Source of the DNA: Pseudomonas oryzihabitans
GTDB lineage: Bacteria; Pseudomonadota; Gammaproteobacteria; Pseudomonadales; Pseudomonadaceae
Assembly (NCBI RefSeq): GCF_024652905.1
Contig: NZ_CP102428.1
Coordinates: 4,510,001 to 4,574,000 of the forward strand
Length of the DNA: 64,000 bases
Direction of reading: 5' to 3'
Position 1 is the first letter of the stretch. Every line of letters starts with the position of its first letter. The notes under the pieces are model-generated. The model had not been told where the DNA came from. It made no database searches and saw nothing but the letters and a program-made list of their open reading frames with translations. Positions 53,505 through 59,208 of this stretch are shown one piece after another. Made by a program: the position numbers and the translations under genes.

Positions 53505-54626
53505 TTACTGGGTAATGACGGCGTGGTTGGAGAAGCCGCTCTGGGTGATGCTGATGGCATTGCCCGCCGTGTTCTGGGTCAGATTGGCGGTGTGCTGGTA
53601 GCCACTCTGGCTGGCGGTGATGCTGGAGGCGTTGCCCTGCACGAAGGCCGTCACCCCGAGGTCGTTGCCTTGCTGATCGACCTTCAGCTGGCCGTCGTTA
53701 CCGAGGTAATAGGCGGTGATGCCATTGCCGTCGCCATTGGACACCAGATCCAGCTGGTTGCCCTCGCCCGAGACGGTGGCGGAGGCGCCATTGCCGTTAC
53801 CGCTCTGCGCCAGGGTCAGCTGGCTGCCGACGCCATAGACATTCACGTCCGCACGGTTGAGGTCACCGCGCTGGGCGATGTCGACGGTGCTGGGCCGCGA
53901 ATAGCCGCTGGAATGCCGGACCCGGGCATCGTTGCCGTTACCCTGTTGCACCACGGTGGAGTCGGTTCGCTCGCCGGCCTGCTTGAGGCCGATGTAGTTG
54001 TCGTTGCCGCGCTGTTCGACGATCGTCGTGGAGTCCTCGCCGTTCTGGCTGACCCAGGCCGCGTTGCGTAGGCCGAAGCTGGTCACCTGCAGGTCCTGGC
54101 GGTCACCGTGCTGAGCCAGGTCCAGCTTGCCGTCGAGTCCATCCTGGCGCACCGTCAGGGTGTTCTGGCCCGCGGCATAGCTGTCCTGCTCGATATCGAT
54201 CCGGTGATTGCCGCCGTCCTGGTGGACATAGGTGTCCTGCCGCAAGCCACTCTGCCGCACCACCGTCTCGTTGCCGCTGCCCGGTCCCTGGTCGACCTGC
54301 ACCCGGTCATAGCCACCATCGCGCTGCTCGATATCCACCAGACGCCGCGAGCCCCAGGCCTGGTTGACCTCGACAGCGCTCTTGCCATTGGTCTGCAGCA
54401 CCCGCACGCGGTCATCGGCAGCGTTCTGCTGGGTGACCTGAGCGTTGAGAAAACTGCCGCTCTGCTGAATATCCGCCTGGTTGCGCGCCGACAGCTCGCC
54501 GCCTTGGTTCAGGTTCACCACATTGAAACCGCCGTTCTGCTGGACGTTGGCGGCGTGGGATTCGGCCCAGGCGACGCTGGTGTTGGCCAGTAGCAACGCG
54601 ACCATGAGGGAGCGGGAGGTTTGCAT
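53505..54626 (-). CDS. Secreted curlin-repeat (CsgA/CsgB-like) protein
   Basis: The 373-residue protein has a signal peptide (SLMVALLLANTSVAWA). The rest is a series of imperfect repeats of about 11 residues with the curlin pattern Val-x-Gln-x-Gly-x-x-Asn, for example VVQQGNGND, LAQSGNGNG and ISITQSGFSNHAVITQ. These stack as beta-strand rungs in curli amyloid. It is more than twice the length of E. coli CsgA, and no csgDEFG genes are in view. It could be an amyloid fibre subunit, a nucleator, or an adhesin exported by a remote Csg system. Confidence 0.82.
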   Translation of the reverse strand: MQTSRSLMVALLLANTSVAWAESHAANVQQNGGFNVVNLNQGGELSARNQADIQQSGSFLNAQVTQQNAADDRVRVLQTNGKSAVEVNQAWGSRRLVDIEQRDGGYDRVQVDQGPGSGNETVVRQSGLRQDTYVHQDGGNHRIDIEQDSYAAGQNTLTVRQDGLDGKLDLAQHGDRQDLQVTSFGLRNAAWVSQNGEDSTTIVEQRGNDNYIGLKQAGERTDSTVVQQGNGNDARVRHSSGYSRPSTVDIAQRGDLNRADVNVYGVGSQLTLAQSGNGNGASATVSGEGNQLDLVSNGDGNGITAYYLGNDGQLKVDQQGNDLGVTAFVQGNASSITASQSGYQHTANLTQNTAGNAISITQSGFSNHAVITQ

Positions 54627-54767
54627 GGGGACGGTCCTTTTAGCCTATGTATAAAAGCAGCCGAAAATTTAAGTGATAAATCAGTTCCGTAGTATCCTCG
54701 CTAATAATGTTGAATGTGCAATCAGTCAAAAGTTTGAATTTTTTGAAAGTGCTAGGGTTGCAAGAGG

Positions 54768-56843
54768 CTAGGACGCAGATTCAATTTCTCTTTGGATTGA
54801 GAGTGATAATCTGTCCAGTGTTCTTTGTTGTAATAAAAAATACGGCTCCGATATTTGCGAAAATTGTTTTCCTTCAAAGTCTGAAGTTAGAAATTCAAAA
54901 TAGCTTTTTGTGGTTGCAGAATTTAGATGAAGGTGGTCTATGTCGTTGCGATAGACCTTTATTCTATGTAGGACTGGCCAAAGGTGTTCATACGAGGTCT
55001 TTATGTCATTCCAGAAATATTGTTTTTTGCCTATGTCTGCTCCGTATTTTTCGATGGATTCAACAAAGCATCTGTTTAAAGTGTTTATAAAGGCAGAGAA
55101 CCCGTCTTTATCTTGAGCTACTTTTGTATCGTATAATCTCCCGCCTTCAGGAAAGGAATTAGCACCAAAGAGCTTGCAAGGTTTTGCCCCTTGGTTTGCT
55201 AGTCGCTCTAAGACGCTGAAGTCAGTTGATATTTCTTCAATTCTACGCTTTAGCCAGCTGCTTCTGTTGTCCTTATCTATGAGCGGGTAGAGCAGTTCGC
55301 GTCCATCTTTTTTCATCGAGTCGAGGGCAACTCTTTGAGCGATGACAGGGATGTTTATCTCGTAGCCATGGTCGCGTTTTCTTATAAGTTGGTAGCTGCA
55401 GAGATGAGATGTGTATGTGGTTTCTTTTGAAAGTTCTTCAAATTCTAGTTCTCGGCCAGTTGCAAGTAGCTCAAATAGGTAATATTCATCTGGATAAAAT
55501 TCGCGAATTTCGGAAATAGCATGATTGCTATAAAATGTAAGTTCTTGATCGATTCTTGGCTTCAGTGCATTGAATGTATTGGTGTCAACTTTAAATGGGT
55601 GGTCTTGTGTTTCCGCCATAAACGAGTTTAGTGTGCTGCACGCTTGGCGAATGAGGAGTGGATGTCCGCCGTACCAGTCTCGAATGCAACCACAAGCATC
55701 GTATTCAAAAGTCATTCCCATGCGCTTGCCAAGTTTGCGCAACATGATTTTGGCTTCTTCTTGACTGAAGCCCGTTAGATATTTGTGGGGTACTATGCCA
55801 AACAAAGGATTCTGAACGCCATCAACTAAGTCCGACTCAACAACGCTAGGATTAACTCCTGCAATTATGAAGCTAAGGCATTTGAATTGACTTTGCGATG
55901 ACCATAAGGTCTGCCAAAGTTCTATGTAATCGTCAACCCAGTGTTTGTCTCGAGGCGAGATGAATGAAATGTATTCAATCTCATCAAACATAATGCATAT
56001 TCGATGGCCAGCATCTCTGCACTCCTTTATGAGTGACACAAAGTTTTTAGATGCTTGACGTTCTGTGTAGTTACCTATTTTTGGTATGCTAAGTTTGTTA
56101 GAAATCTCTGCGGCTAGATCTTCAAGCAATTCAAACCAACGAGCCTTCCGCACATGAGGCTGTTTGCAGTCAATATAAAAAACAGAGGCTACTTTTTCTG
56201 ACTCACATAGGCGCTTTATCTTGAATAAAAGTGATGTTTTTCCCGTTTTTCTCAGTCCAAATATCGCCTTGTTTTCACTCTGCTTGATGGAGCCGTAGTA
56301 CTCCATTACCGAGTTTTGGCGGCCGAAAAAGTATGTGTCCTCTACAAGTGGTAATGAATAGTTGAATAGGTCTCTTCCAAAAAAAAGTTTGTTGAGGCGA
56401 TTTCTTACAAACCAGTTATCTCCCTTTGCCTCATCTAGTTCAGAAACGGAAAATGGTACAATTATACGTGCTTCTTGACGTGATGACACATATGAGTCAA
56501 GCCATTTCGCTACGTTTTCATCATCTGATACTAAAAAATAGTTAAGTGTTTCGACTCTGCCCTTCGCAGGTGAAGTTGAAAATATCTGCTCTACCGCCTG
56601 AAGTGTTCTTGGTTCCATGTGCGAAAATGGAGAATAAATAAGTAGGATTTCATTTTCAAATCCGTAAGACTCTTTATAGTGCTTGTCTGGGGAGAGAAAG
56701 TACATCGATACTGTGGCATTGTAAGCTCTGGTCTTTTTTCCCCATGTCACATCAAAGCCATCTAGAAAGGGTAGAAGAATCTCCCTCTCTTTTGGGTGGG
56801 TTGAAAGATGTTGCTCTTCAACTTCTATTTTTATACTTCCCAT
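54768..56843 (-). CDS. STAND/ORC-like P-loop ATPase with C-terminal HEPN-like domain (candidate defence protein)
   Basis: The 691-residue gene is strikingly AT-rich against its neighbours. Residues 1-165 form an unrecognised alpha/beta domain. The ATPase follows: FFGRQ (172-176), Walker A GLRKTGKTS (196-204), Walker B RICIMFDEIE (Asp287, Glu288), a sensor-like FIIAGVNPS (325-333) and GGHPLLIRQA (392-401), as in STAND and archaeal-type ATPases. After a winged-helix-like middle part, the C-terminus carries YRNDIDH, an Arg632-x4-His637 motif in a helical setting typical of HEPN ribonucleases. AAAGGA precedes the ATG. Signal-triggered RNA cleavage in phage defence is inferred from this architecture; nothing is proven. 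Confidence 0.8.
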   Translation of the reverse strand: MGSIKIEVEEQHLSTHPKEREILLPFLDGFDVTWGKKTRAYNATVSMYFLSPDKHYKESYGFENEILLIYSPFSHMEPRTLQAVEQIFSTSPAKGRVETLNYFLVSDDENVAKWLDSYVSSRQEARIIVPFSVSELDEAKGDNWFVRNRLNKLFFGRDLFNYSLPLVEDTYFFGRQNSVMEYYGSIKQSENKAIFGLRKTGKTSLLFKIKRLCESEKVASVFYIDCKQPHVRKARWFELLEDLAAEISNKLSIPKIGNYTERQASKNFVSLIKECRDAGHRICIMFDEIEYISFISPRDKHWVDDYIELWQTLWSSQSQFKCLSFIIAGVNPSVVESDLVDGVQNPLFGIVPHKYLTGFSQEEAKIMLRKLGKRMGMTFEYDACGCIRDWYGGHPLLIRQACSTLNSFMAETQDHPFKVDTNTFNALKPRIDQELTFYSNHAISEIREFYPDEYYLFELLATGRELEFEELSKETTYTSHLCSYQLIRKRDHGYEINIPVIAQRVALDSMKKDGRELLYPLIDKDNRSSWLKRRIEEISTDFSVLERLANQGAKPCKLFGANSFPEGGRLYDTKVAQDKDGFSAFINTLNRCFVESIEKYGADIGKKQYFWNDIKTSYEHLWPVLHRIKVYRNDIDHLHLNSATTKSYFEFLTSDFEGKQFSQISEPYFLLQQRTLDRLSLSIQREIESAS

Positions 56844-57734
56844 GGGTGTCCTTTATTTGGCTGAAACGCGCAAATTGGTTTTATTTTATTTAAATGCAAC
56901 AATTTCGAATATCTAATTTAGTTGAGATTTTATATAAATTTCTCTGGATTAGTATTTTTGATATGTTGCTGAGTAAATGGTGGCGCAAAGGTAGGAGTGA
57001 GTGTTGTTGATTTTAGTCGGCTAGGCTTGAACTTTATATAATCTTTAAGAGTGCGCTGTTTTTGGTGTTCTATTGGTGGTTTTGTTGGTTTCATAAAATA
57101 CTCTTATCTTAGGTGACTTCGGTGCTGTATCTACTTGGTTAAGTTAAATCTCTAGCTACTGGGCATGAAGGAGACTGTGATGAATTTTCCAGATGACGCT
57201 ATAGGCTTTCTGATTACGCAGCGATTCTAGCCAGCCTGATGCTGTTGGATCCAATTTAATTGCCTTGGGCTTTCAGCGGGCAATAAAAATTACAATGCGC
57301 GCAAGAGTTGGATCTACTTCTATGCCATGAAATAATTTAAGTAAGAGCAAGGCGGCAAGCAACGGTAGCCAGATAAATAGCAGCGAGATGCAATGAATCT
57401 TATGGCGGAGCTAATCAGAAATAGTATCGAACTCGCCGCTAAGAGCGCCGTGATGGTCCTACGTGGTCTTGCCCTAGCAGTGTTTGGTAGGTGCATGGCG
57501 GCGTCTTGGCCCAAGGTGAAGAGTATCCTAGTCGATCCCCTCCTTTTTCTGGGTTTCACGTTAGGCGGCAGGTTTGAAAACGTCAAGTCGGGTAGGGCGC
57601 CGCATCAAGGGGCTTGCTGCGCTGAAGTCCATCGGTTACTACGGAAAACAACCTAAATCTCGCACGTGCTGCAGTTGCGGCTAACAAAAAAAAGGGAAAA
57701 TTGGGCAATGTTAAAATGAAATGTCCGACGAACT
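56844..57734. other. AT-rich degenerate spacer of the island, no convincing gene
   Basis: About 890 bases, AT-rich toward 56850-57150 and closer to chromosomal composition after 57370. The leftmost 110 bases hold the probable promoter of the ATPase gene. A perfect ribosome site GAAGGAG at 57167-57173 precedes ATG 57180, but only 16 codons follow (to TAG at 57230), as in a truncated gene. An 87-codon frame at 57393-57656 with one hydrophobic stretch lacks a ribosome site. Another frame near 57590-57690 encodes a Cys-Cys-x2-Cys tail before a stop. These look like remnants of mobile or phage genes. Confidence 0.55.
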
Positions 57735-57771: not shown

Positions 57772-59208
57772 TTAATCCACCGCCTTGACCATCTCCTCGA
57801 TGACCTTCTTGGCATCGCCAAAGACCATCAGGGTCTTGTCCAGGTAGAAGAGTTCGTTGTCCAGGCCCGCGTAGCCGCTGGCCATGGATCTCTTGTTGAC
57901 GATGATCGTCTTGGCCTTGAAAGCTTCGAGGATGGGCATGCCGGCGATGGGTGACTTGGGGTCGTTCTTGGCGGCCGGGTTGACCACGTCGTTGGCGCCG
58001 AGCACCAGCACCACGTCGGCCTGGCCGAATTCGGAGTTGATGTCGTCCATCTCGAACACCTGGTCGTAGGGCACCTCGGCTTCGGCCAAGAGCACGTTCA
58101 TATGGCCGGGCATGCGTCCGGCCACCGGGTGGATGGCGTATTTCACCGTCACCCCGTTGTGCACCAGCTTCTCGGTCAGCTCCTTGAGCGCGTGCTGGGC
58201 GCGGGCCACCGCCAGGCCGTAACCGGGGACGATGATGACGCTGTCGGCGTTGCCCAGCAGGAAGGCGGCGTCGTCCGCCGAGCCGGATTTGACCGGACGC
58301 TGCTCCTGGCTACCGCCACTGGCCGCGGCTTCCGTCGCCCCACCGAAGCCGCCGAGGATGACGTTGAAGAAGGAGCGGTTCATCGCCTTGCACATGATGT
58401 AGGAGAGGATGGCGCCGCTCGATCCCACCAGCGAACCGGCGATGATCAGCATGGAGTTGTTCAGCGAGAAGCCGATGCCGGCAGCGGCCCAGCCGGAGTA
58501 GCTGTTGAGCATGGAGACCACCACCGGCATGTCGGCGCCGCCGATGGGGATGATGATCAGCACGCCGATGACGAAGGCCAGGGCCACCAGCACGGCGAAG
58601 GCGCCGAGGTTGCCGCTGAAGGTGAACATCAGGCCCAGGGCGAGAATGGCCACGCCAATGGCCAGGTTGAGGATGTGCTGGCCGGCGAACTGCACCGGGG
58701 CGCCCTGGAACAGGCGGAACTTGTATTTGCCCGAGAGCTTGCCGAAGGCGATCACCGAACCGGAGAAGGTGATGGCGCCGATGGCCGCGCCGAGGAACAG
58801 CTCCAGGCGGTTGCCGCTGGGGATCGGATGGCCAAAGGTGGCGACGATGCCCAGGGACTGCGGCTCGACCACCGCGGCGATGGCAATGAACACCGCGGCC
58901 AGGCCGATCATGCTGTGCATGAAGGCGACCAGCTCGGGCATCTTAGTCATTTCCACGCGCTTGGCCATGATCGCGCCGGCACTACCGCCCACCAGCAGGC
59001 CGACGATGACGTAGCCGATGCCCTGCACCGCCAGCTCGCTGCCGAGCTTGTGGATCAGCGCCAGGGTGGTGAGCACGGCGAGGGTCATGCCGGCCATGCC
59101 GAAGGCGTTGCCGCGGCGTGAGGTGGTGGGGTGGGAAAGGCCCTTGAGCGCCTGGATGAAGCACACCGAGGCGACGAGGTAGAGCAGGGTGATGAGGTTC
59201 ATGCTCAT
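57772..59208 (-). CDS. pntB: NAD(P) transhydrogenase beta subunit PntB
   Basis: The 478-residue subunit has eight to nine membrane segments and a C-terminal NADP-binding domain III. The latter begins at about residue 300 and includes VIIVPGYGLAVARAQHAL, HPVAGRMPGHMNVLLAEA and the closing FGDAKKVIEEMVKAV. The enzyme couples proton entry to hydride transfer from NADH to NADP. Its ATG lies one base from the pntAB stop. Last gene of a three-gene operon. Confidence 0.95.
   Translation of the reverse strand: MSMNLITLLYLVASVCFIQALKGLSHPTTSRRGNAFGMAGMTLAVLTTLALIHKLGSELAVQGIGYVIVGLLVGGSAGAIMAKRVEMTKMPELVAFMHSMIGLAAVFIAIAAVVEPQSLGIVATFGHPIPSGNRLELFLGAAIGAITFSGSVIAFGKLSGKYKFRLFQGAPVQFAGQHILNLAIGVAILALGLMFTFSGNLGAFAVLVALAFVIGVLIIIPIGGADMPVVVSMLNSYSGWAAAGIGFSLNNSMLIIAGSLVGSSGAILSYIMCKAMNRSFFNVILGGFGGATEAAASGGSQEQRPVKSGSADDAAFLLGNADSVIIVPGYGLAVARAQHALKELTEKLVHNGVTVKYAIHPVAGRMPGHMNVLLAEAEVPYDQVFEMDDINSEFGQADVVLVLGANDVVNPAAKNDPKSPIAGMPILEAFKAKTIIVNKRSMASGYAGLDNELFYLDKTLMVFGDAKKVIEEMVKAVD

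Follow-up and report, generated by a model that had tools for sequence, protein, structure and literature searches.

Prokaryotic conflict proteins in which a STAND NTPase is joined to a HEPN RNase have been described before. HEPN lies N-terminal to STAND in a fusion from Bacillus (PMC3710099), and in two-STAND systems the HEPN effector is attached to an inactive STAND, which acts together with a second one (PMC8195603). The DUF499/Ava_2192 proteins of BREX-related systems likewise hold an AAA+ ATPase and a Swt1/Abi2-type HEPN, the latter N-terminal, in one defense protein that works with a methylase and a helicase (PMC3710099 and PMC12839542). Tha, a prophage-borne protein of 301 amino acids that is activated by phage tail proteins, has a C-terminal HEPN with an R-N-x3-H motif (R265-NSIM-H270) and, by the HHpred analysis of that paper, no discernible N-terminal domain (PMC11087260). 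TIR-STAND-TPR of the P4 hotspot is a one-STAND-protein system with an N-terminal effector and C-terminal repeats (PMC9122126). Here, we describe a gene, called the STAND-HEPN gene below, in a 64,000-nt stretch of the Pseudomonas oryzihabitans chromosome (NZ_CP102428.1, positions 4,510,001 to 4,574,000; the window). With a probability of about 0.66, its 691-amino-acid product is a single-protein abortive-infection system, carried as cargo of a chromosomal anti-phage hotspot, in which RNA cutting by a HEPN domain is proposed.

The window protein differs from the systems above in several ways. First, in contrast to the STAND-HEPN fusions and the two-STAND systems, it has one active-looking STAND module, with the candidate HEPN domain at the C terminus and an alpha/beta domain in front. 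Second, it is the product of a lone gene and has an archaeal STAND-type ATPase, unlike DUF499/Ava_2192. Third, it resembles Tha in its C-terminal motif but is more than a HEPN protein, since it includes the STAND module. Fourth, no repeats were seen in it and its candidate effector is C-terminal, whereas TIR-STAND-TPR has the opposite order; the int-psu slot of that system also holds a relative of the type called B below. Finally, the anti-phage protein DS-41 (NF053860; PMC13092281) has a Walker A stretch in common with it, and the DS-41 model scored 16.7 bits compared to a cutoff of 370, over residues 183 to 234 only. None of the PADLOC, NCBIfam, or Pfam models searched covers the protein as a system. 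Its best PADLOC match was PDC-S60 (E value of 9.1e-5), over residues 186 to 233 only, and over 10 family members the best defense-model match was PDC-M34B (1.8e-9), in three of them. The layout was not found in the literature searched; the type-B gene could have a different name in the system tables of PMC9122126. A first-pass annotation of this DNA had not recognized the combination with this N terminus, and the same holds for the libraries and literature searched. Close analogues exist, namely, STAND-HEPN pairings, DUF499-HEPN, and Tha.

The gene lies in an island (positions 54650 to 57734 of the window) with a GC content of 41.1%, compared to a mean of 67.4% (standard deviation, 1.7; minimum, 63.7%) for 548 windows of the same length (3,085 bp) elsewhere in the 64 kb, none of which overlapped the island. 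This bears out the abrupt change in composition that the first-pass annotation had noted at both edges. Its claim of a single solid gene was also borne out; one solid open reading frame was found, which starts with an ATG just behind an AAAGGA sequence that reads as a ribosome-binding site and ends with a stop codon at 54768 to 54770 (Table 1). The gene occurs once in the genome, with one match at an E-value threshold of 0.001. The translation and the alignments confirmed the reported positions of the Walker A, Walker B, and Arg632-x4-His637 motifs, and the call of a STAND/ORC-like ATPase was supported for STAND: ATPase_2 passed the Pfam cutoff (38 versus 33.2 bits), the Walker motifs were invariant, and a Foldseek search with the full-length model gave a predicted arrangement of nucleotide-binding, helical, and winged-helix parts as in NLR, CED-4, and archaeal ATPases. 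As modeled, the core is STAND/NLR-like. The GGHP sequence ahead of the winged helix is presumably the GxP motif of STAND proteins. It is very improbable that the protein is instead an ORC/Cdc6- or TnsC-like DNA-handling ATPase that has no part in immunity and is a leftover of a mobile element. Matches to NLR/CED-4 and archaeal STAND-type ATPases were about as good or better, the conserved C-terminal Arg/His domain would have no role in such a protein, and no replication or transposition partner was seen in the island.

The C-terminal domain, when folded alone from an input of four sequences, gave a helical bundle with a predicted local distance difference test (pLDDT) score of 88.3 and a predicted template modeling score of 0.86, and this predicted bundle is compatible with HEPN. 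In the domain model (helix numbering is our own), R632 is near the end of the helix of residues 621 to 635 and H637 is in the loop after it. The long helix before these (residues 579 to 603) contains Glu595, which was invariant in all six aligned sequences, and an extra helix (642 to 655) precedes the last helix. The Rx4H motif was found in every sequence (RNDIDH, RNERDH, RNKFCH, RNKHCH, RHSQDH, and RNSIEH), with N or H after the R, and Ex3[KR] was found in three. Only 13 of the 180 columns were invariant, R632 and H637 among them; the naive chance that both fall in the invariant set, with relatedness ignored, is about 0.5%. These features fit the description of HEPN in PMC3710099 with respect to the motif, the polar residue after the R, and the helix-2 acid. 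Loss of Arg632 or His637 in homologues was looked for, and both were kept in the five ATPase-linked type-A proteins, one of which (L067) is truncated at the end of its contig, and in one stand-alone domain. The latter is a free-standing 208-amino-acid R-x4-H domain encoded by an Enterococcus faecium plasmid (L065:4695-5321), and it adjoins AbrB-type and death-on-curing-type toxin genes.

The reading as a HEPN-armed abortive-infection protein is weakened somewhat by the low confidence of the C-terminal domain in the full-length model, which is taken into account in the probability given above. Neither PDB nor the viral models yielded a significant match in Foldseek searches with the C-terminal model. 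In profile searches, no HEPN model matched the four type-A C termini scanned, and the type-B C termini gave sub-threshold HEPN_Swt1 matches in two of six (E values of 0.0013 and 0.0033). The predicted helical bundle and the retained Arg and His do not refute the HEPN assignment of the first-pass annotation, but the fold search gives no proof of HEPN. None of the three outcomes that this annotation had named as refuting was observed, and its interpretation was supported overall, with RNase activity and phage sensing as proposals.

The N-terminal domain is possibly a Rossmann-like alpha/beta fold, predicted with pLDDT scores of 75 to 92 per 10-residue block in the full-length model. The Pfam search gave no match within residues 1 to 160, and a PDB sequence search found no relative of the domain. 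It is common to type-A and type-B proteins and could also be aligned ahead of the ATPase in the more distant STAND proteins L010, L016, and L017. At these three loci (L010:1-3815, L016:5368-8513, and L017:3793-8516), the same alpha/beta region is followed by a second ATPase gene, which in L010 runs by eye into TIR-like sequence at the end of the stretch, with no Pfam TIR match. Across 14 aligned rows, Pro52 and Glu65 were invariant and Thr33, Arg79, and Arg96 nearly so. These residues bear on an unlikely alternative, namely, that the protein acts in phage defense with the N-terminal domain as the effector, and that the C terminus is a noncatalytic RNA- or protein-binding bundle, as in MtlR-type HEPN. 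Described STAND systems do carry N-terminal effectors (TIR-STAND in PMC9122126; PMC13092281), the N-terminal domain is retained across exchanges of the C terminus (as would be expected with a C-terminal sensor, too), and HEPN is unproven by fold searches. However, R632 and H637 are invariant, the type-B motif R-x-[DE]-A-H is kept in 15 of 16 distinct rows, and invariant polar residues are few in the N-terminal domain, one of them, Glu65, being absent from the aligned distant relative L016.

The site of the island lends further weight to a role in defense. The flanking curlin-repeat-like gene and pntB were sought in 13 genomes of the genus, including that of the window, and the site was readable in eight (G000, G002, G003, G004, G007, G008, G009, and G011); in G001, G005, G006, G010, and G012, no usable match to one or both flanks was obtained. 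The site was empty in G003 and G009, with about 195 to 210 bases between the flank matches, and in G008 the curlin-like match was shortened and cargo was absent. The other five sites were occupied, each by a different cargo and all with an AT-rich stretch. G000 carries the STAND-HEPN gene. The G002 cargo is a 545-amino-acid protein that matches mREase_IV, a type IV restriction enzyme (1.7e-84), and Mrr_cat. G004 has two genes, one for an FRG-domain protein (PDC-S15, 2.6e-102) and one for a 250-amino-acid protein without a match. G007 carries DUF4297 (3.4e-38) with HerA (2.3e-171), a known defense complex (PMC11291478 and PMC12198126). G011 has four genes: Nmad2 (2.9e-67), MazG_C (1.7e-77), one with a TIR-like ThsB match (1.2e-6), and one unmatched. 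Thus, three of the four other cargoes matched PADLOC models strongly and the fourth weakly. In G011, pntB was matched in part only; in G004 and G007, the DNA-level match was on the curlin side only, and the right side was recognized by a shared intergenic piece and, in G004, also by a hydrolase gene that by eye lies beyond pntAB in the window. Judged from these sequences, the curlin/pntB site is a defense hotspot of the genus. Because the other cargoes at the site match defense models, the first-pass proposal of a candidate phage-defense factor is strengthened, and the hotspot together with the invariant Arg and His is why abortive infection is favored over its rivals. No integrase was seen in the cargo, and we infer that cargo is exchanged by recombination in the conserved flanks.

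Some cargo genes merit mention in their own right. The four-gene cassette of G011 (L058:1441-4411), in which the unmatched gene reads like a uracil-DNA glycosylase, resembles a nucleotide-modification-based defense set. The 250-amino-acid protein beside the FRG gene of G004 (L063:3968-4720), which had no PADLOC or Pfam match at an E value of 0.01, is a candidate partner. In G002 and G007, the hotspot has at its right edge an uncharacterized gene whose product begins with MPxKDRHGKTAQDYR (L059:1480-2220 and L064:306-1139), and only a worn trace of its region is left in the window (57320 to 57586).

From membership in the STAND and HEPN families, we infer the following course of events. In a resting cell, the STAND ATPase would be locked. 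A phage trigger would be sensed, most likely by the N-terminal alpha/beta domain or the winged-helix end, leading to nucleotide exchange and oligomerization of the STAND core. Oligomerization would pair the C-terminal HEPN domains as active dimers, which would cut RNA via Arg632 and His637, and infected cells would stop growing ahead of phage release.

Outward from positions 54639 on the left and 57725 on the right, the DNA again matches that of congeners. The foreign part itself, as the sequence comparison indicates, extends from about 54650 to about 57430; it ends there because the bases that follow are a worn copy of an intergenic stretch shared by congeners. This copy is 68% identical to L063 over about 162 bases and shares 16 exact bases with L062, in a stretch that also matches L058, L059, L063, and L064. 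About 580 AT-rich bases with no recognizable gene lie between the STAND-HEPN gene and the end of the foreign part, and they presumably hold its promoter. A promoter scan of 56844 to 57425 gave no promoter-like match, a terminator scan found no terminator-like site, and no Rfam family matched in the island, this region included.

Table 1. Features of the island and its flanks, in window coordinates
Feature	Position	Strand	Basis or remark
Left flank, curlin-repeat-like gene (named by eye)	53505..54626	-	
STAND-HEPN gene, 691 amino acids	54768..56843	-	Open reading frame; GC content, 40.6%
C-terminal all-helical domain, candidate HEPN RNase, residues 512-691	54771..55310	-	Domain model, alignment of 6
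R632-N-D-I-D-H637 (Rx4H, polar residue after R)	54933..54950	-	R632 and H637 invariant in 6/6
STAND ATPase module (nucleotide-binding, helical, and winged-helix parts), residues 161-511	55311..56363	-	
GGHP, residues 392-395, GxP-like	55659..55670	-	Invariant in 11/11 rows
Walker B, Asp287-Glu288	55980..55985	-	Invariant in 11/11 rows
Walker A, residues 196-204 (Lys202), GLRKTGKTS	56232..56258	-	G201, K202, T203, and S204 invariant in 11/11 rows
N-terminal alpha/beta domain, residues 1-160	56364..56843	-	Predicted structure, alignment
AT-rich region upstream of the STAND-HEPN gene, no gene recognized	56844..57425	.	GC content, 40.2% over 56844-57490
Right edge, worn copy of native intergenic region shared by congeners	57426..57587	.	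Match to L063 and L062
Right flank, pntB, transhydrogenase beta subunit (named by eye)	57772..59208	-	

Good relatives, each counted once, comprise 5 type-A proteins (the window protein, L028, L018, L012, and L067) and 16 type-B proteins (L003, L005 to L009, L013, L014, and L019 to L026). Duplicates were dropped (L030, same as L007; L027 and L068, same as L018; L066, same as L028; L029, same as L012), and the near copies L005 and L019 were counted separately. A tree of the N terminus plus ATPase, in which long branches were flagged, set type A apart from type B, but support was modest (79/89, and 74% of 200 bootstrap trees), and for this reason a single exchange of the C terminus between the types is only likely; hhalign found no link between the two kinds of C termini. 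The family is rare: 2/194 among relatives, 1/390 in the order, 5/369 in the class, and 5/398 in the phylum, counting every match at an E value of 0.001 or better, including the window's own genome and weak ATPase-only matches (L010, L011, L015, L016, and L017, which are outside the family counts). A scan with alignment A1 gave nine loci, and a single-sequence scan of viral contigs and a tblastn search in phages found nothing. The one locus yielded by the single-sequence scan of genome contigs, L001, has its match by eye in a phosphoenolpyruvate-carboxykinase-like frame and was dropped as chance.

Many relatives are carried by mobile elements. L028 (59% identical) adjoins a P2-type integrase, a repressor, and a replication-nicking gene (PHROGs), and L019 has a P4-type integrase 14 bases away and, at a greater distance, AlpA- and primase-type genes. 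A type-B gene was found in 5 of 5,426 Escherichia coli genomes, with about 94% identity to a Klebsiella plasmid copy; in strain KL53, no other gene is listed between the P4 integrase and psu, a slot shown by tests to be a reservoir of anti-phage systems (PMC9122126). The copy in E. coli C5 (L070:9001-11003) has an annotation split into two pieces; the P4 satellite around it carries insertion sequences in both int and psu. L012 (GC content of 0.46, compared to 0.61 for its stretch) and an integrase share a 5.28-kb island at tRNA-Cys, the ends of which form a perfect direct repeat of 44 bases; a nuclease-like 176-amino-acid gene (SNase-like by eye; L071:6774-7304) is inside the same island. Phage tail, baseplate, integrase, or replication genes are near L018, L020, L021, L022, L024, L025, and L026, a UmuC-like polymerase and, by eye, a resolvase near L023, and two serine recombinases (by eye) at L067. 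L005, L006, and L007 are on plasmids, and tblastn gave 22 plasmid records: 16 from Klebsiella, 2 from Nostoc, 2 from Sinorhizobium (these and the Nostoc matches being weak), 1 from Deinococcus, and 1 from Qingshengfaniella. Four chromosomal type-B relatives had no phage gene by eye within 15 to 16 kb. They are AT-rich relative to their stretches (GC contents of 0.41 versus 0.67, 0.46 versus 0.63, 0.33 versus 0.51, and 0.48 versus 0.62), and two of them adjoin toxin-antitoxin-like pairs (by eye). Homologue contexts, a possible objection to the defense proposal, were thus not consistently housekeeping but prophages, P4 satellites, plasmids, an integrative island, and low-GC spots.

Plasmid carriage, proximity to toxin-antitoxin-like genes, and the AbrB/Doc-type pair beside the stand-alone domain in Enterococcus would suit an element-stabilizing, toxin-antitoxin-like gene, in which a HEPN toxin is held by its own ATPase and phage defense is incidental. 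We regard this as quite improbable, given that the window gene stands alone with no antitoxin-like partner seen in the island, that it is chromosomal in an island without a replicon or integrase, and that congeners carry restriction and HerA systems at the same site.

Beyond the reading as a single-protein abortive-infection system, we tentatively suggest, at somewhat less than even odds, a family of one-piece resistosomes with a reversed layout: an N-terminal alpha/beta sensor, a STAND core, and interchangeable C-terminal HEPN RNases (RNx3H in type A and R-x-[DE]-A-H in type B). Such a family would have spread via P2-like prophages, P4 satellites, a tRNA island, plasmids, and the genus hotspot while unmodeled in PADLOC, Pfam, and NCBIfam. 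The curlin/pntB hotspot is a source of further candidate defense genes for the genus. If the proposal is true, a compact single-gene receptor-plus-RNase with an NLR-like core would be added to bacterial immunity, with an N-terminal domain common to several kinds of STAND proteins and an RNase that is swapped naturally. It would then become cleanly testable whether the conserved N-terminal part reads the trigger and how activation passes from a STAND core to an RNase at its opposite end.
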